Counted from the first letter of the stretch, positions 3,821-26,708 are shown. The stretch is 55,707 nucleotides of DNA from Candidatus Poribacteria bacterium (GCA_026702755.1 JAPPBX010000088.1:1-55707), one strand, 5' to 3'. The notes: generated by a model not told the origin, from the letters alone. Made by a program: numbers and translations.

Positions 3821-3852
3821 GGAACTGAAAGCCTGTGTAGCAGGCGAAAAAT

Positions 3853-4545: not shown

Positions 4546-4555
4546 AGGAGGTTCT

Positions 4556-4684
4556 CGGTTATCAGTTTTCGGTTATCAGTTTTCAGGGACAAGAGGTACT
4601 GTGGCTGCCACAAGAACCCTCTTAACTCTCACTGCGAGGCAAACTGATGACTCTTCCTCTGACAACTAATAACTGACAACTATT
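4556..4684 (+). repeat. inverted heptad-repeat tracts in the leader
   Basis: The spacer before the 1204-residue gene holds two facing tracts. At 4556-4586 the minus strand reads CTGAAAA, CTGATAA, CCGAAAA, CTGATAA. At 4659-4684 the plus strand reads CTGACAA, CTAATAA, CTGACAA. The period is seven bases. They could pair across a ~70-nt centre. Similar tracts occur at 33028-33189, 40686-40737, 43088-43134 and 45524-45553. Confidence 0.6.
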
Positions 4685-4689
4685 ATACG

Positions 4690-8304: not shown

Positions 8305-8355
8305 GTGGGTTTGTCTGAGATTAGGTTCTGTTGAAACAGCGTGGTGGAAGAATTC

Positions 8356-9823: not shown

Positions 9824-10594
9824 ATGCCACAAATTGATCCAATTTATTTTGCTATTGTTGTTGCTGTTGTCATTATGCTTGGGACGAGCGTCCGAATTCT
9901 TAAGGAATATGAACGTGCTGTTATCTTTCGTCTCGGACGATTAACGGGTACCCGCGGTCCCGGACTTGTATTAATGATACCGTTCTGGATTGAACGGATG
10001 CAACGCATCAGTCTACGGGTTATCGTCAACGATGTCACCCCTCAAGATGTGATTACAAAGGACAACGTTTCCGTGAGCGTCAACGCAGTATTGACCTTCA
10101 GAGTAACCGAAGCGGATAGAGCAGTAATCGAGGTTGAAGACTTCGGGTTTGCCATCTCCCAAGTTGCTCAGACGACGCTTCGTAGTGTGCTTGGACGCGC
10201 TGAACTGGATGACCTACTCTCCGAACGTGAAAAACTGAATCAGGATTTAGAGGAGATTATCAAGAAACATTGTGAACCGTGGGGTGTCGAAGTGCTTGCG
10301 ATGGAGATTAAGCATGTGGATTTGCCCGTTGAGATGCAACGCGCGATGGCGAAACAAGCGGAAGCAGAACGGGAACGGCGTGCCAAAGTTACACACGCCG
10401 AAGGTGAATTTGAATCTGCCGAGGTTTTAACCAATGCTGCGGAAATCCTTAGTAGGATCCCGACCGCTGTCCAACTCCGATTCCTTCAAGCGTTGGTAGA
10501 AGTCAGCGCGGAGAAAAACTCGACCATGGTTTTCCCAATCCCGATAGATCTGCTCAGTCCGTTCCTTGAAAAGATAAAGGGTTCAGAGGAATAG
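9824..10594 (+). CDS. slipin/stomatin family (SPFH) membrane protein
   Basis: Encodes 256 residues, the usual length for slipins. One membrane helix lies at about 7-25, followed by the SPFH core: a [11 protein letters not shown] motif, [10 protein letters not shown], then [21 protein letters not shown] helical segment rich in Glu, Ala and Arg (about 165-205) follows. SPFH proteins form oligomeric rings in membranes and organise microdomains or proteases. Slipins are often paired with NfeD, but no nfeD gene is adjacent here. Translation probably starts at the ATG directly after the third copy of the upstream tandem element, whose AAGGA is about 12 nt away. Confidence 0.9.
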
Positions 10595-10663
10595 TTGATA
10601 TATTTTGAGAGTATTCTCTGAAATGGAGGCTGTGCTGACGGATACGGTCTCTTGGGGGAGCAG

Positions 10664-13600
10664 TTAATCTGTTTTGAGTGTATACACACCGCGTCGAACC
10701 CTCACAATCTCACCGGTGTTAACAAGTTTCATGAGAGCATGGCGTATCGCTGTTGGGTTCCCGTCAATAACCGCGATCATTTCAGATGCCTTTTTCTCAC
10801 CATCTGAAGCCAGGAGCGTGAGAATTTGCTGGCGGAAGGTAATGCGTTCCGTACCGCTGAGTTTTCTCAGTACACGGTTGGCATGAATGTGGGTGCATCC
10901 GAGAATATGCTGCACTTTGTCTCTACCGGATTCCGCAGTTAGATTGGCTCTCTCAACTTCAAAATGTTGACGTGTGGCTATTATCTCAGGAAGTTTGTCC
11001 AGCCCACCGGCGATCTCAAAGTCTTCCCAGTCAAAAAGGAGGGTTTCAGGTCTATCGGTGATGTTCGGCAGTTCCAACCCAGTGAGCAACATGACATTTT
11101 TGCCTGTCTGGGAATTCAATGGAATAAGTCCAACAGCCTCTGTAATGATTCGGCGTGCAGCCGTTTCATAAACGTTCTGGATTCGTTCGTCTTTGTAGTG
11201 ATAGGGTTGCATGACTCTATCATAACAGAGAGGTTTGTCATCGTTTCCAAACAGAGCCTGCGAATACCTCCAAGTAGCGTCTATGGGTGGTGTTGGCATG
11301 CCGACCATCCAGATGACCTCAGCATCTGCGAGATTTGTGTTTCCCCGTATTATTTTTCTGGAATAGCTTATGAAACAGACATTCTCTTTTTCTACGATCC
11401 TCACCAATTTTTTTAAAATCATATTATTGGCGATAATTGCATGCTTAACGTCGGGTTCTCTTTCAATTTCTGCTCGGATACCAGCAAAAAAGCGTTGCCC
11501 CATTTTAGAAGCACCAGCAACTGCTCCGTTATCGCCGTAGTCTAAAATCGTCTCGGGTTGGTAATGACCTGTCCGAATCTGAAAGACTCGGTTTTCCGGT
11601 CGCCATGGTGTCGGTTGAATACGCTTAACTTCAACTTCGTCAGCTGGAAATATCCTACGAAGATGTTGCTCGGAGAGTGTTTCCGATACTAACACAAGTC
11701 GTCTAACGCTCGAATGCAGTATTGGGGGAATAGTAAGCGTCAGTACCTTGTGATCCCACTGAATCGGTGCATCAGCATCCCGTGTGTAATGCGCAAAGAA
11801 ACGCTTGAGTTGATGCCAAAACGTCCATGTTGGATCCGGATAGACGGTCGGGAATGCCTGAATACTTTGGACGGTTTCCGGATTCAGGATACCTAATTGA
11901 ATCGCTTCTGCCATCGGCATTTGGATTTTCATTTCTTCGTTCTTGCCTTTCTCCACCACCTTGCCACGTACATTGACTTGTGTCATCTGCTGGATAACTT
12001 CTTCTTTCTGCCATTCAAATGTCTGCAGTGCTGCCCGGACCCGTTTGACCGCATCGCCGTGGGGCTTACCTCTGATTTCTAAAGCATTCAGTAATGTCTT
12101 GGCGAAGTTCCCTAAGGCACTCCCCTGCCAGTTAGCGATCCACTCTTCTAACACCTTTCTTGATAATCCACATCTCAGAAACAGAGGATGCACATCCGTC
12201 ACACCATTGATGATACAAAGCCTATTTTCTCTTCTATCGACTGGCTTCAGCAACGTGTCCACCAATTTAGCGTGTTGTGGATCGAAAAATAGTTGATTGG
12301 ACACTACTATTTGTGTTTTGGCGCGTTGTAGTGCGGCGGGTTGGGATAAATAGCCACGCGCCTGACACGTCTCGTAAACCGGGCACTGCGGGCAAATACT
12401 TTCACTCGGATCTCCACCTTTCTCCTCAAGCGCATCGCACCGCTCTGGATCCTCACAGACATTTCCGTGTTGAAACGGATTTGCCATACGCGCATCGACG
12501 GGTATCTCTTTTACCTGCTCCCAGAGGTGCATCCGAGGTTTCCAACGAGCAACAGAGCGGACACCTTGTTCTTGAAGACCTTGTTCTGCTGCATCTGCTA
12601 ACTCGGCACTTGGCGCGTTTAAGCAGGTTGTACCACTGTTAAGAAGATGGTATTCTGTATCAGCGTAGCCGATTCCCTCTGTTTCAACATTAAGTCCAAT
12701 GATACGCTCGGTTCCATCGAGAATGCTCCCTATCCGAGTGGTAATTTCTTCAGGGGTTTCCGGTTTTCGTAGGACTGGACGGGAACGTCTTATCGCCAAC
12801 GGGCTGAGTTTTCCTGCCCTCACAGCGAGCATCTTATCAGAGACAGACAGCACAGGAGCGAGTGTCGGCGGCGCAATACCGGTATCGCTCCAGATCTCTG
12901 TGATAGGTGTTGCTTCCGTCGGAAGCTCAGCATCGGGTATAGATGTGCGGAGCCATACGGTTCCCTCGTTCTCCCAGAGCAGTGCGTCCGTATTGTTAGC
13001 ATCACCGCCGTAACGTATCCAGTGGTGAAAACCGTCTGATTGTCGGATATAAGAGAAACCGCGTTTTGAAAGTGCCTCTCTTGCGAGGTCAAGGTCGCGT
13101 GAACCGAGAGATAATGGTGTGTCGGTGAAAGCTTCGTCCTGTTCAGTTTTCTGCGGAACAGGTTCGTGAAGTTTTGCGCGGAGCGCGTCAAGAGGGGCAA
13201 AGAGGACCTCTTTAGAAATCACGGGTGGGTCTAACAGATTTCCGAGCAAAATTTCGTAGCGTGCATCCCAGCGACTGTATCCGTTTTCTCCAAGAATTTC
13301 AAGGTATACGTCTCGATAGCCCGGATTTTCAGGGGTCGACGTGTGTTTATAGACATACAGTTTTTCTTCCTCGGTATTTGGATGAAGATACTCTGGCACT
13401 CTGCAGGAAAAGCGCAGCCCACCCGACCTTGACAGCGTCAACAGCGGGTTCTCGACAGCGTTCACAAGCACTTCAATATAGGTAAGAATGTCGTCTGGAA
13501 CAGCGGAAATCGCTTCGTATTTAAAATCGAGGTCATGCCACCGTGCGCCGTCGCGTTCGGAAGGGATACCGGTATAAATCTGGAGTCCCCATGACGCGTC

Positions 13601-13894
13601 CCATCGTCTGGCTCTCCAGTTTCTCATCCCTTGGCGTTTCAAAAATCGATTAGGCATCAAACTCTTTGGACCGCTATCGTGCACAGGTGCTCGCCCTATC
13701 GGCATAACGGAGATGTCCGCCTGTTCCAAATCATCAAGCAACACAGGGCATTTGTGGGCGCAGTAAACCGTGTATTGGTGCGGATGCGCTGCACTCAACA
13801 TCGTGGGTATTGCTACTGTCTTCTGCTGCCGAAGCGGCTTTTGGTGACGTTGATGGCAGCGTTGAATAAGATCGTTAAAGAGGTCTGTCGGCAT
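10664..13894 (-). CDS. large orphan protein, degenerate primase/Fe-S helicase-like
   Basis: Encodes 1076 residues. An N-terminal region has HDLDF (about 120-124) and SRSGGLRF (156-162), resembling the D-x-D and SGGxH motifs of archaeo-eukaryotic primases, with Arg replacing His. Cys480, 486, 501, 504 and 510 form a cluster like the Fe-S domain of XPD/DinG helicases. The next strand, QIVVSNQLFF, fits the segment before DEAH, but the DEAH position reads IINGVT. No Walker A motif is seen. The last 70 residues form a winged helix like replication or transcription regulators. It may be a replication protein of a past mobile element or a structural adaptor. It is a single gene, convergent with the slipin, and the ATG lacks a ribosome site. 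Confidence 0.5.
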   Translation of the reverse strand: MPTDLFNDLIQRCHQRHQKPLRQQKTVAIPTMLSAAHPHQYTVYCAHKCPVLLDDLEQADISVMPIGRAPVHDSGPKSLMPNRFLKRQGMRNWRARRWDASWGLQIYTGIPSERDGARWHDLDFKYEAISAVPDDILTYIEVLVNAVENPLLTLSRSGGLRFSCRVPEYLHPNTEEEKLYVYKHTSTPENPGYRDVYLEILGENGYSRWDARYEILLGNLLDPPVISKEVLFAPLDALRAKLHEPVPQKTEQDEAFTDTPLSLGSRDLDLAREALSKRGFSYIRQSDGFHHWIRYGGDANNTDALLWENEGTVWLRTSIPDAELPTEATPITEIWSDTGIAPPTLAPVLSVSDKMLAVRAGKLSPLAIRRSRPVLRKPETPEEITTRIGSILDGTERIIGLNVETEGIGYADTEYHLLNSGTTCLNAPSAELADAAEQGLQEQGVRSVARWKPRMHLWEQVKEIPVDARMANPFQHGNVCEDPERCDALEEKGGDPSESICPQCPVYETCQARGYLSQPAALQRAKTQIVVSNQLFFDPQHAKLVDTLLKPVDRRENRLCIINGVTDVHPLFLRCGLSRKVLEEWIANWQGSALGNFAKTLLNALEIRGKPHGDAVKRVRAALQTFEWQKEEVIQQMTQVNVRGKVVEKGKNEEMKIQMPMAEAIQLGILNPETVQSIQAFPTVYPDPTWTFWHQLKRFFAHYTRDADAPIQWDHKVLTLTIPPILHSSVRRLVLVSETLSEQHLRRIFPADEVEVKRIQPTPWRPENRVFQIRTGHYQPETILDYGDNGAVAGASKMGQRFFAGIRAEIEREPDVKHAIIANNMILKKLVRIVEKENVCFISYSRKIIRGNTNLADAEVIWMVGMPTPPIDATWRYSQALFGNDDKPLCYDRVMQPYHYKDERIQNVYETAARRIITEAVGLIPLNSQTGKNVMLLTGLELPNITDRPETLLFDWEDFEIAGGLDKLPEIIATRQHFEVERANLTAESGRDKVQHILGCTHIHANRVLRKLSGTERITFRQQILTLLASDGEKKASEMIAVIDGNPTAIRHALMKLVNTGEIVRVRRGVYTLKTD

Positions 13895-14372
13895 ATTTAA
13901 AATCTTATAATGTAGTAACTTGGGCTACAGTAAATGAACTTTGGAAGACTAAAATCCAATGCAAGCATCTTCAACACTACTGCATAATAGCACAAAGTCC
14001 CCTCTTAATCAAGATTTTCGTACGATTCAAAGCGAAAGAACCGAGTGCTTAAAAGGATGCTGCTGCACCCGCAGTATCTGATTGCATTCCACATTGCAAA
14101 TCCGCTTTTTATGAAATTAGTTGTGAAAAAATTGTGTTTTTGATATATTTAAACCTATAATTTATAAAATTGTATTGTAAAAATAATAGGTTTAATGATA
14201 ATATTATTCTGTGTCGTTGGCGGATTCGCTGGATAGCGTGTTAGTTCAATATATACACGATTCAGAGGATACTGTGTAGTTTGCTCAAAATCATTAGTTA
14301 TGTAAAATCCTCTATTAGATTTAACCTTCGCGTTTGCTTAGGGAATCCTAATGACAAAGGAGTAGCAAATAT
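13895..14372. other. 478-nt AT-rich gene-free spacer with an inverted repeat
   Basis: This spacer separates the divergent 1076-residue gene and the first small glycine-rich gene. It holds a 10-bp perfect inverted repeat, TTAAACCTAT (14149-14158) and ATAGGTTTAA (14186-14195), in a very AT-rich context. A possible weak promoter for the rightward gene is TTGCTC at 14281 with TAAAAT at 14303. No coding sequence is apparent. Confidence 0.5.
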
Positions 14373-14903
14373 ATGTTTCGTTTACTTGCTTTTTTGACAA
14401 TTGCCGTTTTCGCTTTTAATATGCTACCTTCCAGTTACGCTCAAGAACTATCGGTGCAGGCACAGGCGAAAGCAGATGCCAAAAAAGACTCAAGTCCGGC
14501 TCTCAATAGCGAATTTTTTTCGCTCGGTGTTGCCGGGGGTTTTTTGGGGTGTCTTGCCGGCAGTTATCTCGGTTGGCAAATAGGAACCGCTATTGACGAC
14601 TCAGTCCCAGGTGGAGTTGTTTACTCTTTCGGAAACGACGCTCAGATTTATGGATGTTGTGCTGGTGCGATTCTCTTGGGTGTCGTTGCAATGCCACTCT
14701 ACATAAACTTAAGACCCTACAAACCAGATCCACCACCAGAGCGGCTGCTTGGCAAATCGCCAGCGTATATTGAGGCGTACACCCAAGTCTATCAATCTGA
14801 AGCATCGCGCCTCAGTAAACTACATGTCACCAGAGGTACAGTCGTTGGTAATTTGGCAGCTATAGGGGGAGCTATATTACTTGCCGCAGGGCTTGTAAAT
14901 TAA
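14373..14903 (+). CDS. small glycine-rich membrane protein, family member 1
   Basis: Encodes 176 residues. A signal peptide ends near SSYAQ (about 24). A short QAQAKADAKKD segment follows, then two glycine-rich membrane helices (about 50-72 and 92-112) with G-x-x-x-G spacing and Cys residues, the motif PPPERLLGKSP.YIEAYTQVY (121-140), and a last hydrophobic helix (156-175). Three paralogs occur in this window at 20258, 44248 and 44856. The family has no function that I recognise. The glycine zippers suggest helix packing or pore-like assembly in the membrane (inference). It has AAAGGAG upstream and is followed by an LRR gene, a pairing repeated at 20258/21032. Confidence 0.7.
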   Translation: MFRLLAFLTIAVFAFNMLPSSYAQELSVQAQAKADAKKDSSPALNSEFFSLGVAGGFLGCLAGSYLGWQIGTAIDDSVPGGVVYSFGNDAQIYGCCAGAILLGVVAMPLYINLRPYKPDPPPERLLGKSPAYIEAYTQVYQSEASRLSKLHVTRGTVVGNLAAIGGAILLAAGLVN

Positions 14904-14955
14904 GGGACAGAACATTTGATAGTAAGAGGAACCGGTTGTCCACGCGGAAAATGTT

Positions 14956-14980
14956 GATAAGAAAGTAGGCTTTTCTTATC
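14956..14980 (+). terminator. 9-bp stem-loop downstream of small membrane gene
   Basis: GATAAGAAA (14956-14964) pairs perfectly with TTTCTTATC (14972-14980) around a seven-base loop. It lies 52 nt after the stop at 14903. The stem is AT-rich and no T-run follows, so a terminator role is only possible. Confidence 0.35.
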
Positions 14981-15156
14981 GCTGCGGGTGGATACACTAT
15001 TGTAAAAAAGTGTCGGACGGGAGATGCTGCAGCCGCCTGTTTTCGGCACAAACGATTTATGAACCCTTCTTAGGGGAGGCTGCTTGGTTTTCAGTAGACA
15101 GACGTTTCATTTTTTCAAACAAAATAGATTAACTCACCTTAAACGGAGGTAAAACC

Positions 15157-17817
15157 GTGAAAAAGTATTTCAGATTTTTTGTTATTTTTTTTGTGTTCAG
15201 TTGTTTAACCCCACATATTGCATCCGCGCAGGTCGTGAACGTGCCGGATCCGAATTTAGCAGCGGCATTACGAGAAGTATTTGGCTTAGCACCAAATGCA
15301 CCCATTACCAGACAGGATATGCAGAGATTAATAGGCTTTGAAGCTATTAATCGTCAGATAAGGGACCTTACTGGATTGGAACATGCTCCGCAATTACGTG
15401 CTTTAGATCTCGGTGATAATCAGATCAGTGACATTCGCCCACTGGCAGGATTGACGCAGTTAGGCGCATTATCTCTTGCTGAGAACCGCATCCGAGACGT
15501 GACTCCACTGACACAGATGACACAGTTAGAGTGGCTATTCCTTTGGACTAATCAGATTAGTGATATCCGTCCACTGGCAGGATTGACGCAATTAGAACGG
15601 TTATCTCTCAGAGATAATCAAGTGAGCAATCTCACTCCACTCACAAGATTGACGCGATTAAACGAATTACGGCTTAGTGATAATCAGATCCGAGATTTGA
15701 CACCGCTTGCTGGATTGACACAGTTAAGATTATTATGGCTTGCCGACAATCAAATCAGTGATATGTCTCCACTCGCTGGATTGACGCAATTAGAATGGTT
15801 AAATCTTAGAGGGAATCAAATCAATGATGTAAGTCCGCTTGCGGGATTGGCGCGATTGGAGGAGTTGTATCTCATTCAAAATCAAATCAGCGATGTGTCC
15901 CCGCTCGCTGGATTGACACAGTTGGCAATTCTAAATCTCAGGACGAATCAAATCCGTGACGTATCCCCCCTCGCTGGATTGACAAACCTAACAGAATTAT
16001 ACCTTGAGGGGAACCCAATTCAGGATACATCGCCGCTGGCGAGCCTGACAAAACTCAGGGTAGTGGATGTTAGGATTACTGCGCCTCCTACGGGACCCGT
16101 TAGTAGGGTCTCAATACCCGATCCGAATTTGGCGGCGGCAGTACGGGAGGCATTGCGCTTAGCACCAAATGCGTCTATTACCACACAGGATATGCAAAGA
16201 TTAATAAATCTGGATGCGAATAATCGTCGGATAACAAATCTCACTGGGTTAGAGCACGCCACACAATTGAGAGAGTTATACCTGCATCAAAATCAGATTC
16301 GCGATATAGAACCCCTCGCTGGATTGCCGGAGTTAAAATGGTTAGCTCTTGAAAGTAATCAAATAAGTGACGTGAGTCCGCTCGCTAGATTGCCCCAGTT
16401 AGAGCGTTTAACCCTCAATAGCAATCGAGTCAGTAACCTTAGTCCGCTCGCTGGATTGATCCAGTTAGAACTGTTAATTCTCAGTGACAATCAAATAACT
16501 AATCTTAGTCCGCTCACTGGATTGACGCGATTGACAGTATTATGGCTCACTGGAAATAATATTCGTGATGTGTCCGCGCTCGCGAAATTGGTAAACCTGG
16601 AGGTGTTAAGGCTTTCGGGGAATCCGATTCAGGATACGTCACCACTTGCGAGCCTCACAAAATTAACGGATGTGGATGTTAAGATTACCGCTCCGCCTTC
16701 ACAGCCACAGCCGATATCGGAAGACCCAACTCAGCCAAGTCCTGAACCAGCACCTCAAGAAACTGCAGAAACTCCTCAAGATGAAGGCACGCAACCGACT
16801 GAAACACCCGCACCTTCGACGATAACCGAAGGACAAATTACGTTTAGCGAACTAATGTTCGCGACAAGCGGAGGGCTCTTTTCTCAACCGCAGTGGATAG
16901 AGTTATTCAACAATGGTCCTGTTGGTTCCGAACCAGTGAATCTCAGAGGATTGAGGTTAGTCATTGAGGCACGCGATAGTGAAACCCGACATCGGTACTC
17001 AACTATCGTGTTTGAAGACTTAGTTATTAAACCCAAATGGACAGTGTTGCTGGTGACACGAGGGAATAGTCGGAACTCAGGATATTTGTCCGAGGATCGA
17101 GTCTATAGTCTCTACGATCATAGTAATGTAAGTAGCCTCGGTTTGCATGATAATGCAGTCTTACCAGCCTCCGGATTCTCGCTAAAGTTGTTCGCCGCAG
17201 ATGGCACGTTAATTGATAGTGCTGGGAACCTTGATGGTGTGAAAAGGAGCAAGGATACCCCTCTGTGGGAGCTGCCGGCAGGCTGGACAGAAGACAGAAT
17301 GCGAACGTCATTGATTCGTCGGTATGAAGACGGCACGGCACTACCGGGTACGGAAGCAATGAGTTGGGTGCGTGCTGCAGATGTAGAGTTATCTATGGAA
17401 CTTTATTATGGACATAAGGCCGACATTGGCACGCCTGGGTATAGACGCGGTGGACCGCTGCCGGTTGCGTTGTCGCATTTTGGTGCGAATAGGACAGACG
17501 CGGGTGTTATCATCGAATGGACGACAGCATCGGAGACCGACAATGCCGGTTTCAATATCCTACGCGGTCAAACCAAGGAAGGTTCGTTTGTGAAGGTGAA
17601 TCCAACGCTAATCCCGGGTGCAGGGACAACAGCCGAACGGACGAACTACACATGGGTAGATATGACTGCGAAATCGAATGTCGCTTACTATTATCGAATA
17701 GAAGATGTTTCATTCTCAGGGAATCGTCGGCAGTTAACAACGGTTCGTATGAGAGGACATCTCTCAGCAGCAGGAAAATTCGCTATGACGTGGGGTGGTT
17801 TGAAGACGCGGGATTAA
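15157..17817 (+). CDS. secreted LRR / lamin-tail domain protein
   Basis: Encodes 886 residues. The GTG start follows GGAGGT. A signal peptide ends at ASAQ (about 25). Two LRR blocks follow, each opened by a cap of type DPNLAAALRE....ITRQDMQRL: the first has ten internalin-type 22-residue repeats, the second six. A Pro/Thr/Gln linker (about 510-560) leads to a lamin-tail domain (from ITFSELMFATSGG) and a C-terminal FN3-like module ending in TWGGLKTRD. The protein is exported and likely surface-attached, with LRRs for binding a protein or glycan partner. The C-terminal part is nearly the same in two neighbours at 17883 and 22825. Internal cap duplication suggests fusion of two LRR units. Confidence 0.85.
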   Translation: MKKYFRFFVIFFVFSCLTPHIASAQVVNVPDPNLAAALREVFGLAPNAPITRQDMQRLIGFEAINRQIRDLTGLEHAPQLRALDLGDNQISDIRPLAGLTQLGALSLAENRIRDVTPLTQMTQLEWLFLWTNQISDIRPLAGLTQLERLSLRDNQVSNLTPLTRLTRLNELRLSDNQIRDLTPLAGLTQLRLLWLADNQISDMSPLAGLTQLEWLNLRGNQINDVSPLAGLARLEELYLIQNQISDVSPLAGLTQLAILNLRTNQIRDVSPLAGLTNLTELYLEGNPIQDTSPLASLTKLRVVDVRITAPPTGPVSRVSIPDPNLAAAVREALRLAPNASITTQDMQRLINLDANNRRITNLTGLEHATQLRELYLHQNQIRDIEPLAGLPELKWLALESNQISDVSPLARLPQLERLTLNSNRVSNLSPLAGLIQLELLILSDNQITNLSPLTGLTRLTVLWLTGNNIRDVSALAKLVNLEVLRLSGNPIQDTSPLASLTKLTDVDVKITAPPSQPQPISEDPTQPSPEPAPQETAETPQDEGTQPTETPAPSTITEGQITFSELMFATSGGLFSQPQWIELFNNGPVGSEPVNLRGLRLVIEARDSETRHRYSTIVFEDLVIKPKWTVLLVTRGNSRNSGYLSEDRVYSLYDHSNVSSLGLHDNAVLPASGFSLKLFAADGTLIDSAGNLDGVKRSKDTPLWELPAGWTEDRMRTSLIRRYEDGTALPGTEAMSWVRAADVELSMELYYGHKADIGTPGYRRGGPLPVALSHFGANRTDAGVIIEWTTASETDNAGFNILRGQTKEGSFVKVNPTLIPGAGTTAERTNYTWVDMTAKSNVAYYYRIEDVSFSGNRRQLTTVRMRGHLSAAGKFAMTWGGLKTRD

Positions 17818-17882
17818 CAACGGTCGCGCTTTCACCCTCGCTACAACGAATCGTTGTATACTTCATTCAGAGGAGACTTAAT

Positions 17883-20219
17883 ATGACCTGTTTAACAGAA
17901 TCGTGTTATAGAACCGTTTACAAATTCGTGAGAAAAATGTGGACCCCAGCTAAATGCTTCGTGTTAATTTGCACGGCGTTGTTCTTAACGTCTCAAGGTG
18001 TAAGTTACGGTCATAATGTGCTCCCTGTGGGGCACAATCACACCCCTTACTTTGATGAGATTGCTTCTCCTCCCATATTTGTGTTAGAGAACCTATCAAA
18101 TCATTTAATAGGAAATGTAAGGGCAATTGATGAAGATGAAGATGATACGTTAACTTATAGTTTGGCTTATGATCTTATGTTTTATTTCATTCCTGGTGAT
18201 GAGCATCATCTTCAGCATTATGGTCATTATTACACGATTAACTCTGAAACGGGTGAGGTACGCACGGGTAGTGATGGATTAGATTTTGAGGCATTGCCAT
18301 ATACATACTACCCTCCATATAAATACCACACAGTAGTGGTCACGGTTGAAGATGGTAAAGGTGGCAGTGCTTTGTTCGTGTATCAGATCTTTGTCACAGA
18401 TGTAGATGAAAATGGAGACCAACCGTCAGATGCCACAAGCCCGGTGCTGACGAACGCAAATACCACAAGCCCGGTGCCGACGCCGGAACAGTTTCGCATC
18501 CTTCCGCGGAATAATGCAAAGCCAGCGAATTTAAGGCCTTCTCCGGTCGCACAGGACCGAATCATCTTCAATGAAATTCAAAATGCTCCGAACGATTCTG
18601 AGGACTGGATTGAACTCAAGAACATCAGCGATGAAGATGTTTCCCTCACAGACTGGGAGATAAGCATCGTCACGCCTTCTGAGGTTCGGCAGGTAAATAG
18701 GGCGGAGGATGCTGGAAAAGACGAAGACATCGTTACCTTTCCAGACTACACGCTTCCCACAGGCGGTATTTTGTTGGTTGTCAATACTGATCCGAGTGAG
18801 ACGCGACTTGAATCTGGGGCGGATATAACCGACCTGGAGCACGACCCCAATGAGCAACCGCAATATCTTGTTGCCTCGGAGATGCGTTTGCCGGATACAC
18901 CGTATCTCCTGATTCTGCGGAGTGCGACGGATAAGAATGGCAAGTCTGAGGCGTTTGAGGATATCGCTGGCAATTACTTCCGAAGTTCCATTTACTACCA
19001 CACACAGGTCTGGCCCCTCATGTACACCTTCTCACCACCTAACAGGGAAGGAGCGGAGTTGACGCTGGGTCAAGCGTGGCGGCGAGTTGCTGTTGAAGAA
19101 CGCGGTTATACAAAAGGCGCGTGGGCATCGAGTGGGTATCAATCTGGGATTGGATATAAAGCTGGGACTTCAATAGAAGTATGTCTTGGCACCCCCGGGT
19201 ATCCCAACGATACAGTTGCCGATGAGAGTCTCACGGGACGCATCGCTTTTAGTGAGTTGATGTATGCAACCAACGGTGGATTGTTTTCGCAACCCCAGTG
19301 GATAGAGTTATACAACAATACAGCGACGGCAGCGGAAGCGGTGAACCTTGAAGGTTGGACGTTGGTCATTGAAGCACGTGATAGTGAGACGCGTCACCGG
19401 TATACCGAAATTGAGTTGACAGCATTAGAGATCGCCTCAGGTGAAGCGGTTCTCTTAGTAACGCGAAATCGTCGCCATTCAGAACATCTGTCTGAGGATC
19501 AAGTTTATGATCTCTACAACCATAGTAACGTATTTAGCCTCGGTTTGCGTGAAAACGCTGTGATTCCTGCTTCTGGTTTCTTGCTGAAGTTGTTTGCACC
19601 CGATGGCACGTTAGTGGATAGCGCAGGGAATCTTGATGGTGAAAAGGGTATAGATATCCCAACTTGGGAGCTGCCCTCAGGACGGACGGAGGACGGTGCT
19701 CGGACATCGTTGATTCGTCGTTACAACGAAGATAGCATCGCCCTAATAGGGACAGAATCGACGAGTTGGGTGTCTGCTGCGGCTATGGCGTTATCTGAGA
19801 GCATGTATTATGGGCATAAGACCGATATTGGCACACCTGGGTATAGACGCGGTGGTGCTGCGCCTGTGATGTTATCAGATTTCAGTGCGAATCGGACGGA
19901 AGTCGGTGTTATCGTTGAATGGAGGACGGCATCAGAGACGAACAATGCGGGTTTCAATATCCTAAGGGGTCAGACGAAGGATGGTTCGTTTGTGAAGATC
20001 AACCCAACGCTGATTCTGGGTGCTGGAACAACGGCTGAACAGAATAGTTACACGTGGACTGATACGACTGCGAAACCGAATGTTACGCATTATTACCAGA
20101 TAGAAGATGTTTCCTTCTCAGGGGATCGTCAACGTCTCGCGACGGTTCGGATGAAAGGATATGTCTCCGCGAGTGACAAACTCACTACAACATGGAGTGA
20201 ATTGAAAGTTCAAGATTAG
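17883..20219 (+). CDS. secreted cadherin-like / double lamin-tail protein
   Basis: Encodes 778 residues from ATG 17883, preceded by AGAGGAGA. The frame is open further upstream but that stretch overlaps the previous gene in another frame. A signal region ends near VSYGH (about 42). A cadherin-like domain (about 50-180) shows DTLTYSL, TGEVRTGSDGLDFE and VTVEDGKGG. Then come a short Thr/Ser/Pro repeat, a first lamin-tail domain (IIFNEIQNAPNDSEDWIEL), a second (IAFSELMYATNGG), and the FN3-like end (TTWSELKVQD). It is probably an adhesive or scaffold surface protein. The second lamin-tail and the end are shared with the LRR and beta-lactamase-fold neighbours, and the last ~60 bases are almost identical to 25100-25161. 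Confidence 0.8.
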   Translation: MTCLTESCYRTVYKFVRKMWTPAKCFVLICTALFLTSQGVSYGHNVLPVGHNHTPYFDEIASPPIFVLENLSNHLIGNVRAIDEDEDDTLTYSLAYDLMFYFIPGDEHHLQHYGHYYTINSETGEVRTGSDGLDFEALPYTYYPPYKYHTVVVTVEDGKGGSALFVYQIFVTDVDENGDQPSDATSPVLTNANTTSPVPTPEQFRILPRNNAKPANLRPSPVAQDRIIFNEIQNAPNDSEDWIELKNISDEDVSLTDWEISIVTPSEVRQVNRAEDAGKDEDIVTFPDYTLPTGGILLVVNTDPSETRLESGADITDLEHDPNEQPQYLVASEMRLPDTPYLLILRSATDKNGKSEAFEDIAGNYFRSSIYYHTQVWPLMYTFSPPNREGAELTLGQAWRRVAVEERGYTKGAWASSGYQSGIGYKAGTSIEVCLGTPGYPNDTVADESLTGRIAFSELMYATNGGLFSQPQWIELYNNTATAAEAVNLEGWTLVIEARDSETRHRYTEIELTALEIASGEAVLLVTRNRRHSEHLSEDQVYDLYNHSNVFSLGLRENAVIPASGFLLKLFAPDGTLVDSAGNLDGEKGIDIPTWELPSGRTEDGARTSLIRRYNEDSIALIGTESTSWVSAAAMALSESMYYGHKTDIGTPGYRRGGAAPVMLSDFSANRTEVGVIVEWRTASETNNAGFNILRGQTKDGSFVKINPTLILGAGTTAEQNSYTWTDTTAKPNVTHYYQIEDVSFSGDRQRLATVRMKGYVSASDKLTTTWSELKVQD

Positions 20220-20257
20220 ATCGTTAGAACCTATCTCATAAATACAAGGAGTGCTTT

Positions 20258-20773
20258 ATGACCCGCAACATCGCTGTATTGATGATAGGAGTCATGTTTT
20301 TCAATCTCGCCGGTAATTGTTTTCCACAACCCATAGACGTAGAAAGTCAAGCGAAAGCTGACGCAACGGCGGATATGAAACCAGCAGCCTGGTTTCTTTT
20401 AGGGGCAATGGCACCCATCGGGTGTCTCATTGGATACGCTATAGGAACATCTATTGACCCGGAACCTGTCAAATCCGACTACTATTCCTATAGTTGTTGG
20501 ACGACCCCGAATGAGACACAGATTAATGGTGCCTGTATCGGTGGTGTTGTCGGTGTTCTCATGTTACCGGTTTCCTATGCGCTGACACCTATCAATCCGT
20601 CACCGGAGCGTTTGCTCGGCAAACCCCCTGAGTATGTTTCGGCTTACACCTCTGTCTACAAACGGCATACCCGGTACTCTCGGATAACGTCGGCGGTGTC
20701 GGGTTTCGCTGTCGGATCTGCCATATCCTGCTTATTCGGCTTGAGCATCTGGGAGAATCTACAGGAAGACTGA
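20258..20773 (+). CDS. small glycine-rich membrane protein, family member 2
   Basis: Encodes 171 residues. It has a signal peptide (to about 24), then ESQAKADATAD, a glycine-rich helix with GCLIGYAIGTSID, a second with INGACIGGVVGVL, the family motif SPERLLGKPPEYVSAYTSVY, and a final hydrophobic segment. The ribosome site AAGGAG and the bases up to the ATG resemble those of member 4 at 44856. It sits upstream of an LRR gene, as member 1 does. The stop TGA is followed immediately by an ATG (20774) that opens the broken LamG frame. Function unknown. Confidence 0.7.
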   Translation: MTRNIAVLMIGVMFFNLAGNCFPQPIDVESQAKADATADMKPAAWFLLGAMAPIGCLIGYAIGTSIDPEPVKSDYYSYSCWTTPNETQINGACIGGVVGVLMLPVSYALTPINPSPERLLGKPPEYVSAYTSVYKRHTRYSRITSAVSGFAVGSAISCLFGLSIWENLQED

Positions 20774-21013
20774 ATGCGAATTTATCTAATCAACTGTCCA
20801 TTTACCCCCAATACCGGCGAAGTGGACTTTGATGGTGTAGGTGACGCTCTTGTGGTTAAAGACTATCCAACATTTGACATTACAGAAAACATGACCTTTA
20901 TGGCATGGTTCTGATCGACCGATACCTTGACAAATCGCGCATTTATAGTGAAACACGACTCTTTCTACGTGGGTTTCGGTGAACAGAATCAACTTAAATT
21001 CGGCGTACAATCC
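20774..21013 (+). pseudogene. LamG-domain gene remnant with in-frame stop
   Basis: Read in one frame, this stretch gives the hallmarks of a LamG/concanavalin-like domain: a D-G-V-G-D-A-L-V-V segment, then FDITENMTFMAWF, a TGA at 20912-20914, and STDTLTNRAFIVKHDSFYVG followed by GEQNQLKFGVQ. Poribacterial-type LamG domains have this order. The domain lacks its N- and C-terminal parts. The frame is the same as that of the downstream LRR gene and remains open into its GTG start, so a single base change would fuse the fragment to the LRR protein. It is best seen as a relic of a recombination event. Confidence 0.65.
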
Positions 21014-21031
21014 AAAAACGGAGGTAAAACC

Positions 21032-22576
21032 GTGAAAAAGTATTTCAGATTCTTTGTTATTTTTCTTGCGTTCAGTTGTTTAACACTGCATATTGCATCC
21101 GCACAAGTCGTGAATATACCAGATCCGAATTTAGCAGAAGCATTGCGAGAGCGGTTGGGTTTAGCACCGAATGCACCTATCACCAGACAGGATATGCAAA
21201 GATTAGAAGGATTTACGGCTATAGATATCCAGATAAGAAACCTTACTGGGTTGGAACACGCGACGCAGTTACAGGTGTTACATCTTAATGGAAATCAGAT
21301 TCGAGACTTAAATCCGCTAACTGGGTTAACACAGTTATTGGTGTTAAGTCTCAGTGATAATAATCAAATCAGCAATATCAGCCCACTGGCAGGATTAACG
21401 CAATTATTTGGATTAGGTCTTAGTGGTAATCAAATCAATGATATAAGTCCACTTGCACGATTGACTCAGTTAGAACAGTTATACATTAGTGGTAATCAAA
21501 TCAGTGATATAAGTCCACTCACACAATTGACTCAGTTAGAACAGTTACATATCAATCGTAACCAAATCAGTGATATAAGTCCACTCACACAATTGACTCA
21601 GTTAACGGAATTAGCGATTCGGGAGAATCAAATCAGAGATGTGAGTCCGCTCACAAGACTGACACGATTAAAGGCGTTAGGTCTTGAGGGGAATCAAATC
21701 AGCGATATCCGTCCTCTGTCAGAATTGACACAGTTAGAGGTGTTAAGTCTTAGTCATAATCAGATCCGAGACGTGAGTCCGCTTGCAAGACTAACGCAAT
21801 TGAAGCAGTTATATCTCCATTGGAACGATATTCGCGATGTATCTCCGCTTGCGAAGTTGGTAAACCTGGAAATATTACGGCTTGCGGAGAACCCGATCGC
21901 AGATACCTCACCGCTGACGAGTCTGACAAAACTTGTTGACGTGGACATTGAAATCACCGCATCTGTTGTTGAAGATATCAACGCCGATGGTGTCATCAAC
22001 ATTCAAGACTTAGTGTTAGTTGCCTCCAACTTCGGTGAAACAGGAGAAAGTGCTGCGGATGTCAATGCGGATGGAATTGTTGACATCAGGGATCTCGTCT
22101 TGGTTGCGAGCGCTTTCGGCACTGCCCCAGCAGCACCGTCCTTAGACCCACAGGCACTGAAAATGTTCACTGCTGTAGACGTGGAAAACTGGCTTATCCA
22201 AGCACAGCATCTAAACCTACCAGGCACAACATCGCAAAAGGGTATCCGCTTCTTAGAACAATTTCTCGCATCGTTGATTCCAAAGGAAATGGCTCTCTTG
22301 CCTAACTATCCGAATCCGTTCAATCCAGAGACGTGGATACCCTATCAGTTGGCGAAGCCAGCAGATGTACAGATCGCTATCTATGATGTACGTGGCATGA
22401 TCGTCCGACGATTGGCATTGGGGCATCAATCGGCGGAGGTCTATCACAACCAGAGTCGTGCTGCGTATTGGGATGGTAGAAACGCATTCGGTGAAGCTGT
22501 GGCGAATGGTGTGTATTTCTATACGCTTACCGCAGGCGACTTCACGGCTACGCGCAAGATGTTGATACGGAAGTAA
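21032..22576 (+). CDS. secreted LRR / dockerin / C-terminal sorting domain protein
   Basis: Encodes 514 residues. The GTG start and its GGAGGT leader match the LRR gene at 15157 almost base for base, as does the signal peptide (KKYFRFFVIF...ASAQ). A DPNLAEALRE cap is followed by ten 22-residue internalin-type LRRs. Two EF-hand-like loops (DINADGVINIQDL and DVNADGIVDIRDL) form a dockerin-like module. The end, with NYPNPFNPETWIPYQL and NGVYFYTL, is a FlgD/type IX-like C-terminal sorting domain. It is exported and may be displayed or docked through the dockerin. Unlike its paralog it lacks the lamin-tail cassette, so the same LRR head occurs with two kinds of tail. Confidence 0.85.
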   Translation: MKKYFRFFVIFLAFSCLTLHIASAQVVNIPDPNLAEALRERLGLAPNAPITRQDMQRLEGFTAIDIQIRNLTGLEHATQLQVLHLNGNQIRDLNPLTGLTQLLVLSLSDNNQISNISPLAGLTQLFGLGLSGNQINDISPLARLTQLEQLYISGNQISDISPLTQLTQLEQLHINRNQISDISPLTQLTQLTELAIRENQIRDVSPLTRLTRLKALGLEGNQISDIRPLSELTQLEVLSLSHNQIRDVSPLARLTQLKQLYLHWNDIRDVSPLAKLVNLEILRLAENPIADTSPLTSLTKLVDVDIEITASVVEDINADGVINIQDLVLVASNFGETGESAADVNADGIVDIRDLVLVASAFGTAPAAPSLDPQALKMFTAVDVENWLIQAQHLNLPGTTSQKGIRFLEQFLASLIPKEMALLPNYPNPFNPETWIPYQLAKPADVQIAIYDVRGMIVRRLALGHQSAEVYHNQSRAAYWDGRNAFGEAVANGVYFYTLTAGDFTATRKMLIRK

Positions 22577-22590
22577 TTGGAAAATGCTGC

Positions 22591-22616
22591 ACGGACGGCA
22601 CCGCGTTGTCGTCCGT
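22591..22616 (+). terminator. stem-loop after LRR/dockerin gene
   Basis: ACGGACG (22591-22597) pairs with CGTCCGT (22610-22616), and the stem can extend further with one mismatch. It begins 14 nt after the stop. There is no clear T-run. Confidence 0.4.
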
Positions 22617-22824
22617 AAACATTGAATAGAGGCAGCAGCCGTTGCGGATGCTGAAAATGAGGTCAATAAAACCTTTTGGTAGCCAGTGTTGAAAAGATTC
22701 ACACATTTCTTGTCAATTTTAGGTGTTCTCGGTTTTGGGTGGGTATAATGACATGATAATAGCCACAAAGCCAGTGCTTCAGAAGAGTTGCGGCTTAACT
22801 GAAGTCTTAAAGGATGGAAAAACC

Positions 22825-25161
22825 ATGAAAATGAAAAATCCAGTCTCGAATTCAAAATACCTTGTGTTGTTTTTGATGACCATATTACTAATTTATGGCC
22901 GGCAAGATGTTATGCCAAATAAGGCGTTCGCACAAACTGGTCAATTTGTTCAGGAAATGATAAATGTAGACAAAGTTTTCTCCAATTTTATGAATGACTG
23001 GAACATACCTGGTGGATCCATAGCCATTGTGAAAGATGGACGTTTGATTTACGCCCGGGGTTTTGGATACGCGAATAAAGAATCCAATGAACGCATGAGC
23101 CCCGACCATCTTTTTAGAATTGCAAGTGTATCTAAGTCGATTACTTCGATTGCAATAATGAAACTCATTGACGAAGGGGCAATTAATGTTGATGCTAAAG
23201 TTTTCGGGGCTGATGGTCTACTTAGTGGTCCTAACTACAACACTATTCTTGACCCAAGCGTCAAAAATATTACCGTGAGGCATTTATTACACCATACGTC
23301 TGGATGGGGTTTTATTAACAAAAACGGTGATCCCATGTTTTTGAATCGGTATATCGCTCAGCAAATGGGAGAAAACCCTCCAGTCGATTCAGAGGCTATA
23401 ATTCAATTTATGCTTACGACCCAAACGCTAAATAATGAACCAGGCACCAATTATTTTTATTCTAATTTTGGATTTTGTATTCTCGGCAGAATTATCGAAC
23501 ACATCTCAGGAAAAAGTTATGAAAATTATGTAAAAACCGAATTGTTGAATCCCTTAGGTATCTCTGAAATGCAATTAGGTCGGAATCTGTATGAGAATAA
23601 GGCACCAAATGAAGTTAAATATTATGACTCCCCGGGTGCCCCTTTAGTTAATTCGGTTTATGGAGCAGGTGCAGGTGTTCCATTTCCCTACAGTGGATTC
23701 AATATCGAAGCAATGGATTCCCACGGTGGATGGATAGCCTCGGCAATTGACTTAGTGAAATTACTTGTTGCCGTAGATGGATATGATACAAAGCCAGACA
23801 TTCTCAATCAAGCAGCAATACGATTAATGACCACTCCTTCAACTGCAAATAGTGGGTATGGGATGGGATGGGCAGTTAATCCTTGGGGGAACTGGTGGCA
23901 CGCTGGCGATTTACCGGGCACCTCTTCAATATTGGTAAGAACCTCCAATGGCTTAGGCTGGGCAGTATTGTTTAATACACGTCCCTCGAATTTGCGAGAC
24001 TTTAGGGTCCAAATGGATAACATGGTTTGGGAAGCGATTAAGGGAATAGATCATTGGCCCACTCATGACCTGTTTGAACAAGCAGCATCGGTTCAACAAG
24101 ATTCTGCAGAAGTCCCTCAGGATGCAGGCACGCAACCGAAACCTGAAACATTTACACCTTCGGTTATAACCGCAGGACAAATTACGTTTAGCGAGTTGAT
24201 GTTCGCGACGAGCGGGGGGCTCTTTTCGCAACCGCAGTGGATAGAGTTATTCAACAATGGTCCTGTTGGTTCTGAACCGGTGAATCTCAGAGGATCAAAG
24301 TTAGTCATTGAGGCACGTGATAGTGAAACAAAGCATCGGTACTCAACTATTGTATTTGAAGACTTAGTTATTAAACCAAAATGGACAGTGCTTCTGGTGA
24401 CGCGAGATAATAGCCGAGACTCTGGACATTTGCCTGAGCATCGAGTTTATAGTCTTTCTGATCATAGTAATGTAAGTAGCCTCGGTTTGCGTGATAATGC
24501 GGTTTTACCAGCCTCCGGATTCTCTCTAAAGTTGTTCGCCGCAGATGGCACGTTAATTGATAGTGCTGGAAATCTTGATGGTGAGAAAAGGAGCAAGGAT
24601 ACTCCTGCGTGGGAGCTTCCCACAGGCTGGACAGAGGACCGAATGCGAACGTCATTGATTCGTCGGTATGAAGACGGCACGGCACTACCAGGCACAGAAG
24701 CAATGAGTTGGCTCCGTGCTGCGGATGTACAGATAACTACCAACACGTATTACGGTCATAAAGCGGATATCGGTAACCCTGGGTATAGACGCGGTGGACC
24801 GCTGCCGGTCGTGTTGTCGGCGTTCCGTTCAGAACGGGTAAACGCGGGTGTTATCATCGAATGGACGACGGAATCGGAGACCGACAATGCCGGTTTCAAT
24901 ATCCTACGGAGTCAAACGAAGGATGGTTCGTTTGTGAAAGTGAACCCAACGCTGATTCCGGGGGCTGGGACGACAGCCGAACGGAATAACTACACGTGGA
25001 CAGATACGACAGCAAAACCGAATGTTGCTTACTATTACCAGATAGAAGATGTTTCCCTTTCAGGGGATCGTCAACGTCTTGCGACGGTTCGGATGAAAGG
25101 ATATGTCTCCGCGAGTGACAAACTCACTACAACATGGAGTGAATTGAAAGTTCAAGATTAG
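22825..25161 (+). CDS. secreted serine beta-lactamase-fold protein with lamin-tail cassette
   Basis: Encodes 778 residues from ATG 22825, which has AAAGGA upstream; the longer frame from 22723 has none. A signal peptide ends at KAFAQ (about 37). Residues 45-410 are a class C beta-lactamase/DD-peptidase fold: SVSK gives Ser101/Lys104, YSN is at 212-214, HTSGW follows HLLH, and HAG is at 359-361. All catalytic positions are present. The substrate could be a peptide, ester or lactam. From about 450 on it carries the lamin-tail and FN3-like cassette found in 15157 and 17883. The catalytic part looks more AT-rich than the tail, suggesting a domain acquired and joined to a local cassette. Confidence 0.85.
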   Translation: MKMKNPVSNSKYLVLFLMTILLIYGRQDVMPNKAFAQTGQFVQEMINVDKVFSNFMNDWNIPGGSIAIVKDGRLIYARGFGYANKESNERMSPDHLFRIASVSKSITSIAIMKLIDEGAINVDAKVFGADGLLSGPNYNTILDPSVKNITVRHLLHHTSGWGFINKNGDPMFLNRYIAQQMGENPPVDSEAIIQFMLTTQTLNNEPGTNYFYSNFGFCILGRIIEHISGKSYENYVKTELLNPLGISEMQLGRNLYENKAPNEVKYYDSPGAPLVNSVYGAGAGVPFPYSGFNIEAMDSHGGWIASAIDLVKLLVAVDGYDTKPDILNQAAIRLMTTPSTANSGYGMGWAVNPWGNWWHAGDLPGTSSILVRTSNGLGWAVLFNTRPSNLRDFRVQMDNMVWEAIKGIDHWPTHDLFEQAASVQQDSAEVPQDAGTQPKPETFTPSVITAGQITFSELMFATSGGLFSQPQWIELFNNGPVGSEPVNLRGSKLVIEARDSETKHRYSTIVFEDLVIKPKWTVLLVTRDNSRDSGHLPEHRVYSLSDHSNVSSLGLRDNAVLPASGFSLKLFAADGTLIDSAGNLDGEKRSKDTPAWELPTGWTEDRMRTSLIRRYEDGTALPGTEAMSWLRAADVQITTNTYYGHKADIGNPGYRRGGPLPVVLSAFRSERVNAGVIIEWTTESETDNAGFNILRSQTKDGSFVKVNPTLIPGAGTTAERNNYTWTDTTAKPNVAYYYQIEDVSLSGDRQRLATVRMKGYVSASDKLTTTWSELKVQD

Positions 25162-25682
25162 AAGGCTAAATCCAGTAGGAGTGGTTAAATGAAGGTTAAG
25201 AATTTAATCGGGTAATTCCCAACGTGCCATAAACGCTGTCCTTACGACAAGTAGTTCCGTTTGTAGTCAGAAAAACATTCATTGTTTGTCAATTGCCGAC
25301 ATGTTTTTTACCTTCATAAAACCGCTCCTATTTTATATCGTAGTTTGGACAATCTGAATAGTATTGCTACCTATTTATCAACAGTCGGAGCCGCTTTCAC
25401 CGAAAAACCGTCTAATATTACGCGTTTTCTTTCGTTGATCCAACGGATAGAAAAAGGCATGTCAAAACAGAAAGCGCAGCCCCAGTAGGGCGATATATTT
25501 GGGTGATTTCAGGTTCTCTGTCCTGTAAAAAACTCTGTGCTGTGTGTAATTTTTACTAGGTCTGCGTTCAACCCAATCTATGGGACGCTTTAATTTTTAT
25601 TTTTAAACTCACGTTGTCACAAATAGACGCTTAACTTTTTGTCAACTATTTAATCTATAATTCAGAATAAGGAGCATCAATA
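25162..25682. other. 521-nt gene-free region with an 84-nt repeat element
   Basis: The first half shows no convincing gene; a 68-codon frame at 25282-25488 has no ribosome site and no recognisable features. The segment 25503-25586 aligns nearly end to end with 33084-33167. Both begin GTGATTTCAGG and both contain GTTCAACCCAA near the end. The remainder leads to AAGGAG at about 25670, the ribosome site of the small lipoprotein gene. Confidence 0.6.
25503..25586 (+). repeat. 84-nt interspersed element, copy 1
   Basis: Shares GTGATTTCAGG, TTCTCTGT, a T-rich TTTTTA stretch, TAGGT and CGTTCAACCCAA with 33084-33167 in the same order and spacing. The two copies have the same length and lie 7.6 kb apart. 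It could be a small non-autonomous element or a structured RNA. Confidence 0.6.
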
Positions 25683-25877
25683 GTGTTAAAATTTCAGATA
25701 ATTCTAATTGTCGTTTTAATTGCCTGTGTTCCATTAGTATCGTGCGATCGCGCACGGCAAACGATAGCCCCGGTTCTACCAGATGAGGACACGATGGAGC
25801 CTAGGTTGTGTTTACATTTTGTGAATGGTTACAAGTATAGCTGCGAAATAGACGAATCCGAGATACCGAACACCTAA
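25683..25877 (+). pseudogene. small lipoprotein gene interrupted by IS5-type element
   Basis: The GTG start follows AAGGAG. The product begins with a hydrophobic segment ending LVSC, a lipobox, then a short acidic stretch. After codon 40 the frame runs into the IS at 25805 and ends inside it at 25877. Removing the IS and one CTAG copy gives a frame that stops after only a few more residues (TAA just right of 26671). The original protein was therefore about 45 residues, or had already lost its 3' end. Its function is unknown. Confidence 0.55.
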
Positions 25878-26246
25878 CTTATCGTAGCGCGTCGCCACCC
25901 GACGATACTGTTTCAACCAGCCAAAGAAACGTTCTATCAAGTTCCGGCGTTTATACAACGTTTCGTCATACGCACGCGGCTCCGTCCGCCCTTTGCGGGG
26001 CGGTATCACCGCAATCGCATCCCGGGAGGTGATCTCCTCTATAAACGCATCCGAGTCGTAGACCTTATCGCCTATGACATGTTCATAACAATAACCTTCA
26101 ATCAGCGCAGACGCTTGTGTAATATCATTGCGGTGTCCCTCTATGAAAATAAAACGCAACGGGACACAGGCATCACTGAGAGACAGATTCAGTTTCGTCG
26201 TAAATCCACCGCGCGTCCGTCCGAGTGCTTGTGCTTCTTGGCCTCC
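25812..26246 (-). CDS. IS5-type transposase, C-terminal frame (orfB)
   Basis: Carries the second half of the DDE transposase. The frame opens upstream of its first Met and encodes GRTRGGFTTKLNL, then VIGDKVYDSDAF (second Asp) and RRNLIERFFGWLKQYRRVATRYDK (catalytic Glu). It has no ribosome site of its own and is expected to be made as an OrfAB fusion by a -1 shift on the A8 run at 26247-26254, which is followed by GGAGG on the coding strand. The stop codon lies within the left terminal repeat. A 115-codon version starting at 26159 is the part downstream of the first Met. Confidence 0.85.
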   Translation of the reverse strand, partial: GGQEAQALGRTRGGFTTKLNLSLSDACVPLRFIFIEGHRNDITQASALIEGYCYEHVIGDKVYDSDAFIEEITSRDAIAVIPPRKGRTEPRAYDETLYKRRNLIERFFGWLKQYRRVATRYDKLGVRYLGFVYFAAILVTIHKM

Positions 26247-26608
26247 TTTTTTTTAGGGGCACCCGCTGCGGAGGCATGTGCGCGCACGATCGTCGAATCA
26301 ATGAGAATACCTGAGATGTCGCCAGCATCGTGAAAATGTTCGTGGAGTGCCTGAAAAACACCCGCATCACACCATCTACTGAAGCGACGATAGATCGCAT
26401 TCCAATTGCCATAGACTTCCGGTAAAGCGCGCCACGTCGCGCCTTCTTTAGCGATCCAAAGCACAGCAGAGAGAAAGTGTCTGCACTTTTCAGGGTTTCC
26501 AACATAGACGTTTCGACAGTCTCTAAGGAACGGCAAGATGCTATTCCAAGCAGCATCACTCACTTGCTTTGGAAGGTCTTGAGAGGTAACTGTATTTTGA
26601 GTTTCCAT
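26189..26608 (-). CDS. IS5-type transposase, N-terminal frame (orfA)
   Basis: Encodes 139 residues. It contains the IS5-type N-terminal domain (about 15-90, with WNAIYRRFSRWCDAGVF) and the first catalytic Asp in GILIDSTIVRAHASAAGA, followed by PKKKEAKKHKHSDGR encoded by the A8 slippery stretch. Alone it would lack the second Asp and Glu. It reads into orfB by a -1 frameshift. It starts about 60 nt inside the right IS end. Confidence 0.85.
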   Translation of the reverse strand: METQNTVTSQDLPKQVSDAAWNSILPFLRDCRNVYVGNPEKCRHFLSAVLWIAKEGATWRALPEVYGNWNAIYRRFSRWCDAGVFQALHEHFHDAGDISGILIDSTIVRAHASAAGAPKKKEAKKHKHSDGRAVDLRRN

Positions 26609-26708
26609 AAACAGAGCATACTAAAATCTCTACGAAAAGTCAATACCTTTTCAAATGTAAACACAACCTAGGGGCCCACCCCAATAACGAACATAGATTT
26701 TCTTAGAC

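Follow-up and report, generated by a model that had tools for sequence, protein, structure and literature searches.

A probable domesticated, non-motor derivative of a primase-helicase in Candidatus Poribacteria

What is a helicase-like protein for once its motor is gone? The question is raised by a gene in DNA from a Candidatus Poribacteria bacterium (GCA_026702755.1 JAPPBX010000088.1:1-55707). It lies at 10664..13894 of the 55,707-nucleotide stretch that we analysed, which we refer to as the window, and encodes a protein that joins primase-like and helicase-like parts. A preliminary description, made from the sequence alone, had called it an orphan and suggested domestication. Here we consider what the protein is, where it came from, and whether selection has kept it; we argue, at a probability of roughly three in four, that the gene is a domesticated non-motor DNA-binding derivative of a primase-helicase.

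The gene is on the minus strand (the strand had not been given before), as are all the features of the protein described below. Its frame is open over 1076 amino acids from an ATG start, it has homologs in a larger family, and omega against its sister copy is 0.25. Every element first noticed in it is there—DLDF, SGGLRF, five cysteines, IINGVT, no Walker A, and a terminal winged helix. The N-terminal domain (residues 1-245, 13160..13894) is AEP/Prim-Pol-like. Its motif I, WHDLDF (residues 119-124, 13523..13540), fits the pattern hhhDhD/E with D121 and D123 both present, and D121 is near-invariant across the family. The motif II region, RSGGLRFSCR (residues 156-165, 13400..13429; SGGLRF at 157-162), is without the sxH histidine: GLR is found instead, and Arg161 stands at the His position in every family member that has the domain. 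The near-invariant E199 (13298..13300), on the strand YLEIL, is a candidate motif III acid, placed by the order of strands in the predicted model.

The motor sites of the helicase part are lost. The P-loop of Walker A, GxxxxGK[ST], is absent from the window protein; the site aligned with intact paralogs (residues 398-418, 12641..12703), IIGLNVETEGIGYADTEYHLL, reads NVETEGIG where they have AETGAGKS. At the Walker B site (residues 559-566, 12197..12220; RLCIINGVT at 558-566) the protein has LCIINGVT against LCIIDEAx in intact paralogs, so that IINGVT replaces the DExx box. A remnant of SF2 motif III, RLVLVSETLSEQHL (residues 732-745, 11660..11701), corresponds to MSSTL or MSATL in other copies, and the decayed motif VI site, IITEAVGLIPLN (residues 905-930, 11105..11182), does not match QxxGR, in contrast to the TQIVGRAGLNR of the genome's motor-intact paralog. 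Five cysteines (C480, C486, C501, C504, and C510; residues 480-510, 12365..12457) occupy the position of the XPD/DinG Fe-S domain, with a spacing of the same class as in intact relatives; four of them form a cluster that sits between the Walker A and B sites, as in XPD/DinG. This is a putative Fe-S domain, although zinc binding would also be compatible with the sequence. A family signature, TDRPETLLFDWEDFEIA (residues 946-962, 11009..11059), separates the RecA2-like part from the HTH region, and the protein ends in an AbiEi-like winged helix (residues 1018-1075, 10670..10843), assigned from the model and from a weak AbiEi_4 match (E 0.0095) in a Pfam profile search. Compared with its 92%-identical sister in another species (L002), the window copy has lost about 49 residues in frame, at the junction of residues 650 and 651 (11942..11947).

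Searches of Pfam, PHROGs, NCBIfam, and PADLOC with the window protein matched the winged helix alone, weakly; the PF08800 BT4734-like profile gave no match in it, phmmer and profile searches found no match to it in the PDB, and no family-level match to helicase models of the PDB, Pfam, or NCBIfam was obtained. The predicted structure does have relatives. A full-length AlphaFold2 model, built on 59 Poribacteria homologs, has a mean pLDDT of 82.3 and a pTM of 0.77; its top Foldseek match in the PDB is Thermoplasma XPD (2vsf, E 1.6e-10), followed by TFIIH Rad3 (5sva_Y, E 3.9e-8), seen in TFIIH-containing complexes. A RecA1/RecA2 core in an XPD-like arrangement is found by this search despite low whole-chain TM-scores (0.29 of the query, 0.47 of XPD), and against viral models the full model matches DinG/Rad3 helicases along with several bifunctional primase/polymerase (Prim-Pol) proteins. 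The C-terminus is modelled as three helices and a beta-wing. The first 250 residues, also folded alone (pLDDT 84.7), give top five PDB matches that are all AEP/Prim-Pol proteins—NrS-1 primase-polymerase (two entries) and LigD polymerase—with a CRISPR-associated Prim-Pol further down the list; with weak E-values, none better than 0.012, we regard the AEP assignment as likely, short of proven. The proposed similarity to XPD/DinG-type helicases is thus borne out, and a fold with neither AEP nor SF2 similarity, which would have spoken against the preliminary description, was not what the models gave; its primase-like N-terminus is supported weakly.

The label of orphan had to be given up, since homologs occur across the host's family: 49 of its 59 genomes have them, spread over two of the four genera. 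A genome may hold no copy at all or as many as about 12. Counts in single-contig genomes are about 12 (G021), about 11 (G084), nine (G009), and five (G005); some near-complete genomes (G016, G071, G081) have none, and with this range the family must be dispensable. Paralogs are typically 45-60% identical to one another, the neighbours of different copies differ, and an internal stop interrupts few of the full-length copies that were listed. The family is divergent and multi-copy, with motor-intact paralogs that include one in the window's own genome, and we found no description of it in the literature searched. Tandem clusters of two to four family genes (L037 and L165 in G021, L145 in G084, L040 in G009) mix motor-intact, Walker-degenerate, and 788-aa mini forms, much like a local gene nursery. 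The sole copy found in G017 (G017:C1:4486283-4489669) has both Walker motifs and one or two in-frame TAG codons; it looks like a motor-intact pseudogene. One motor-dead clade (L117, L130, L132, and L140, from G067, G064, G056, and G068) has an in-frame TGA at a single former Trp codon (about 449-456; YER*KPR[IM]YLWEQVK), a position that falls after the Walker A site and before the cysteine cluster. Comparison of L130, L132, and L140 indicates purifying selection on both halves (omega 0.10-0.14, dS up to 0.67), and the clade may make either a read-through product or a split, two-protein form.

Was the motor lost, or was it never there? We placed 106 distinct family proteins and four outgroup proteins on a tree, using a quick method and pattern-based motif calls of which some are borderline. 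Both Walker motifs are found in 14 of the 106 and at least one is lost in 92, all four outgroup proteins have Walker A and B, and the tree requires a minimum of 10 state changes for Walker A and 12 for Walker B. Motor loss is therefore derived and happened more than once, and the existence of relatives with the same architecture and both Walker motifs supports the preliminary description on this point. The four motor sites of intact paralogs have the sequences AETGAGKS, LCIIDEAx, MSSTL, and QIIGR; the copy in the window's own genome (G000:C96) is fully motif-intact, with AEAGSGKS, IIDEAE, MSSTL, and QIVGR. Intact and dead copies occur together in G009, G021, and G084 as well, and none of the five copies of G005 has both Walker motifs.

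The cysteines have been kept. Across 59 aligned homologs C480, C501, C504, and C510 do not vary, and they are never point-mutated among motor-altered sequences that have the domain (84/84); C486 varies. The expected conservation therefore holds except in eight copies, mainly of one clade, that are without the whole domain. Forms of 780-840 aa are missing the cysteine domain, Walker A, and a large share of the motor around it; across degraded forms, the AEP-like core, a PETxxFDWEDFE block, and the winged helix are retained. The second acid of motif I (D123) is kept in 12 of 13 motor-intact members versus 52 of 88 motor-altered ones—a hint only, because related sequences are not independent.

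The source of the family is suggested by four more distant proteins in which the P-loop, five cysteines, DE box, and a Q..xR.R motif VI are complete. One, L048, has the N-terminal domain of the window protein together with Walker A, the cysteine cluster, and the DE box; the motors of L045, L047, and L049 are likewise intact. Profile-profile comparison of the family with these motor-intact relatives gives 100% probability and E 6e-43 over 793 columns, and sets the decayed sites opposite the P-loop and DE box of the relatives. Taken with the invariant cysteines of the 59 homologs, this E-value puts the motif pattern of the window protein well beyond chance. The N-terminus of L045 matches PF08800 BT4734-like_N (E 3e-12) and resembles CRISPR-associated PrimPol type B. 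Intact relatives have genes for Rep_3 (L045, L194), an N6_N4 methylase (L045), or a Dam methylase (L193) as neighbours, and a tyrosine integrase lies near L195, a further helicase relative; from such neighbours we conclude that the ancestor was a mobile-element replication protein. What the comparison shows of this ancestor is an AEP-like N-terminus (the weak assignment), an XPD/DinG-type Fe-S helicase, and a C-terminal HTH.

Two plasmid-like modules in Poribacteria, L045 (G018, 2833-9229) and L194 (G072), pair Rep_3 with a motor-intact Fe-S primase-helicase; the L045 module also has an N6/N4 methylase and no close match in phage or plasmid collections. Neither L045 nor L048 matches anything among phage records or viral contigs, and in plasmid records the BT4734 domain of L045 is the sole match, with none for L048; relatives of the L045/L048 type are missing from the phage, plasmid, and viral-contig collections searched.

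Selection on the dead copies was estimated as pairwise omega by the Nei-Gojobori method. Motor-dead pairs give 0.12-0.25, with one pair at 0.53, and are no different from motor-intact pairs (0.21-0.29); the window copy and its sister give 0.25 overall and 0.07 over residues 961-1076, the wHTH region. Two dead clades keep the same neighbours at seven and eight loci in different genomes. Low omega and fixed loci are what domestication predicts, unlike neutral decay, which we reject for most dead clades; purifying selection and positional stability across genomes thus favour the domestication first suggested for this gene. With a helicase fold, dead ATPase motifs, and a frame under selection, the protein can be classed as a pseudohelicase.

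The window copy itself is part of an accessory island (10595..26690) of the window gene and LRR/lamin-tail genes, inserted between an SPFH gene and a lysine-2,3-aminomutase gene; at this site G021, G020, G001, and G009 have just 0.5-4 kb of other DNA. The gene lies between the SPFH-type gene and the LRR and lamin-tail stretch. No element genes (initiator or integrase) are found beside it, its neighbours being host-type and LRR/lamin-tail genes; among the island's genes none was identified as a defence gene, and apart from its wHTH the protein matches no defence family. A block at 10594..14209 is shared, at 93-94% identity, with a copy at a different chromosomal place in another species, whereas for core genes at the SPFH locus the identity between the two genomes is about 80%. 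The sister copy sits in an insertion of about 8 kb, and the corresponding site is without this insertion in G000, G006, G017, G005, and G001. By these comparisons, islands were exchanged horizontally and the window copy moved with them. Neither an integrase nor a target-site duplication was found at the window island, and the gene's composition is not foreign (GC 0.49, against 0.47 for the window).

A single-gene transposon was considered for the abrupt ends of the 93% block, and rejected for now because there are no direct or inverted repeats at the island ends and no long flank shared among copies. Near the upstream edge of the block is an AT-rich imperfect hairpin, TAAACCTAT...ATAGGTTTA (14144..14195, minus strand), with a counterpart at about 8846 of L036 and 17-bp perfect arms in the G020 copy; it is not family-wide. 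A promoter palindrome or operator common to the family was not found, palindromes being observed about as often as in shuffles. The junction of the SPFH and lysine-2,3-aminomutase genes is an integration hotspot, with unrelated inserts in different genomes. Within the island's tandem of LRR and lamin-tail genes, 22723-25161 encodes a secreted-type protein with a PF00144 beta-lactamase/transpeptidase-fold and a lamin-tail domain.

How does this protein compare with known systems? It shares with XPD/DinG (Rad3) SF2 Fe-S helicases the predicted core fold and the four to five cysteines between Walker A and B, and intact paralogs add an LLFMSSTL-type motif III and, in some, a QxxGR motif VI; unlike XPD/DinG, the family has an AEP-like domain at its N-terminus and a wHTH at its C-terminus, and the window copy is without Walker A, Walker B, and motif VI. 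AEP families, including mobile-element primase-helicases, have been surveyed (PMC5862659). Such primase-helicases, BT4734-like ones among them, also fuse an AEP-like domain to a helicase and HTH, and the intact relatives described here similarly adjoin Rep_3, methylase, or integrase genes; however, the helicase partner here is XPD-like rather than RepA, DnaB, D5, VirE, or DUF3987, the motif II His is Arg, and the window family is chromosomal and multi-copy, with a dead motor. The closest tested analogue is PriA of D. radiodurans, a pseudohelicase that has no helicase activity but still binds DNA, and also DnaB (PMC4504706). Both are SF2 helicases with degenerate Walker A and B, retained in evolution; PriA, however, is a single ancient host gene, whereas here a mobile-element protein has given rise to a large paralogous family, live and dead. 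The winged helix resembles the N-terminal wHTH of AbiEi-type proteins, but the match covers about 30 residues, and neither an antitoxin domain nor a toxin partner beside the window gene was identified.

Several other accounts of the gene must be considered. It could be the relic of a decaying mobile element, without present function: its relatives are mobile-element proteins, it sits in an accessory island with a 3.6-kb block that recurs elsewhere in another species, the window copy has an internal deletion, and the only copy of G017 has internal stops. For the syntenic dead clades their omega largely refutes this; in addition, internal stops are few among the full-length copies listed, and loci stay fixed. 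The window copy, an island gene of patchy occurrence from which a large internal piece is deleted, could nevertheless be at the onset of decay despite its omega of 0.25. We consider a relic improbable, and to the same degree a primase-polymerase that still makes primers without a helicase. D121, D123, and E199 are all present in the window copy and the fold is weakly of AEP type; against primer synthesis, Arg replaces the sxH histidine of motif II (defined in PMC5862659) family-wide, and the second acid of motif I is lost in 36 of 88 motor-altered members versus 1 of 13 intact paralogs. Slightly less improbable, though still unlikely, are mixed complexes in which dead copies modulate a motor-intact paralog of the same genome. 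Genomes with both kinds, the window's among them (G000:C96), along with G009, G021, and G084, would allow this; single-contig G005, with no copy among its five that has both Walker motifs, evidently does not require an intact partner, which makes the idea less likely.

A stronger contender is a housekeeping or regulatory scaffold, in which dead copies serve host replication, repair, or transcription by loading or positioning the machinery, and have no anti-element role. It draws on the two dead clades that persist at the same locus across genomes, on strong constraint on the wHTH, AEP core, and cysteines, and on the documented D. radiodurans pseudohelicase (PMC4504706). Copy numbers that fall to zero in near-complete genomes, an island-borne window copy, and neighbours that vary between copies do not suit it. 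We regard this possibility as tentative, and as nearly as likely as interference with related elements, which is our leading guess, unproven, and itself held at well under even odds: in related plasmids and phages the protein would occupy origins or forks and block the elements' own primase-helicase. Such a role suits an accessory, multi-copy, island-borne family; against it, immune genes persist vertically at fixed loci less typically than housekeeping genes do. The fuller version, a diversifying, immune-like repertoire of up to about 12 motor-dead decoys per genome, made from the replication primase-helicase of the bacteria's own elements, that recognises and blocks origins or forks of incoming relatives, is more speculative than either.

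The history that we favour, domestication of a primase-helicase as a non-motor DNA-binding protein, takes in sister proteins with intact motors, which are encoded in plasmid- or phage-like replication modules. In Poribacteria, the protein became chromosomal and multiplied to up to about 12 paralogs; several lines, the window's included, lost Walker A, Walker B, and motif VI, while purifying selection retained the full frame, four cysteines, AEP core, and winged helix. Judging by its motor sites, the window protein would be unable to hydrolyse ATP or unwind DNA, and we infer that it works through DNA binding—the winged helix may select the DNA site, the Fe-S and AEP-like domains may grip DNA that is single-stranded or forked, and the dead motor may serve as a scaffold.

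Pseudohelicases, and AEP-helicase fusions on mobile elements, are already known (PMC4504706, PMC5862659); we have found no description of an AEP-like domain joined to an XPD-like Fe-S helicase that grew into a large family on chromosomes, some of its members live and others dead. This single family holds live, half-decayed, and fully dead copies as well as copies without the cysteine domain or poor in motor parts, often in one genome, so the conversion of a mobile-element motor into a chromosomal DNA-binding protein can be read step by step. Pseudo-enzymes are well known among kinases; to our knowledge, proven pseudo-helicases are few. The family is a natural experiment on the purpose of an XPD-type Fe-S domain without a motor, and it provides a candidate, open to testing, for a large gene family of sponge symbionts that is uncharacterised. 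If the decoy reading is true, these bacteria would have built an immune-like multigene family from the disarmed enzymes of their enemies.
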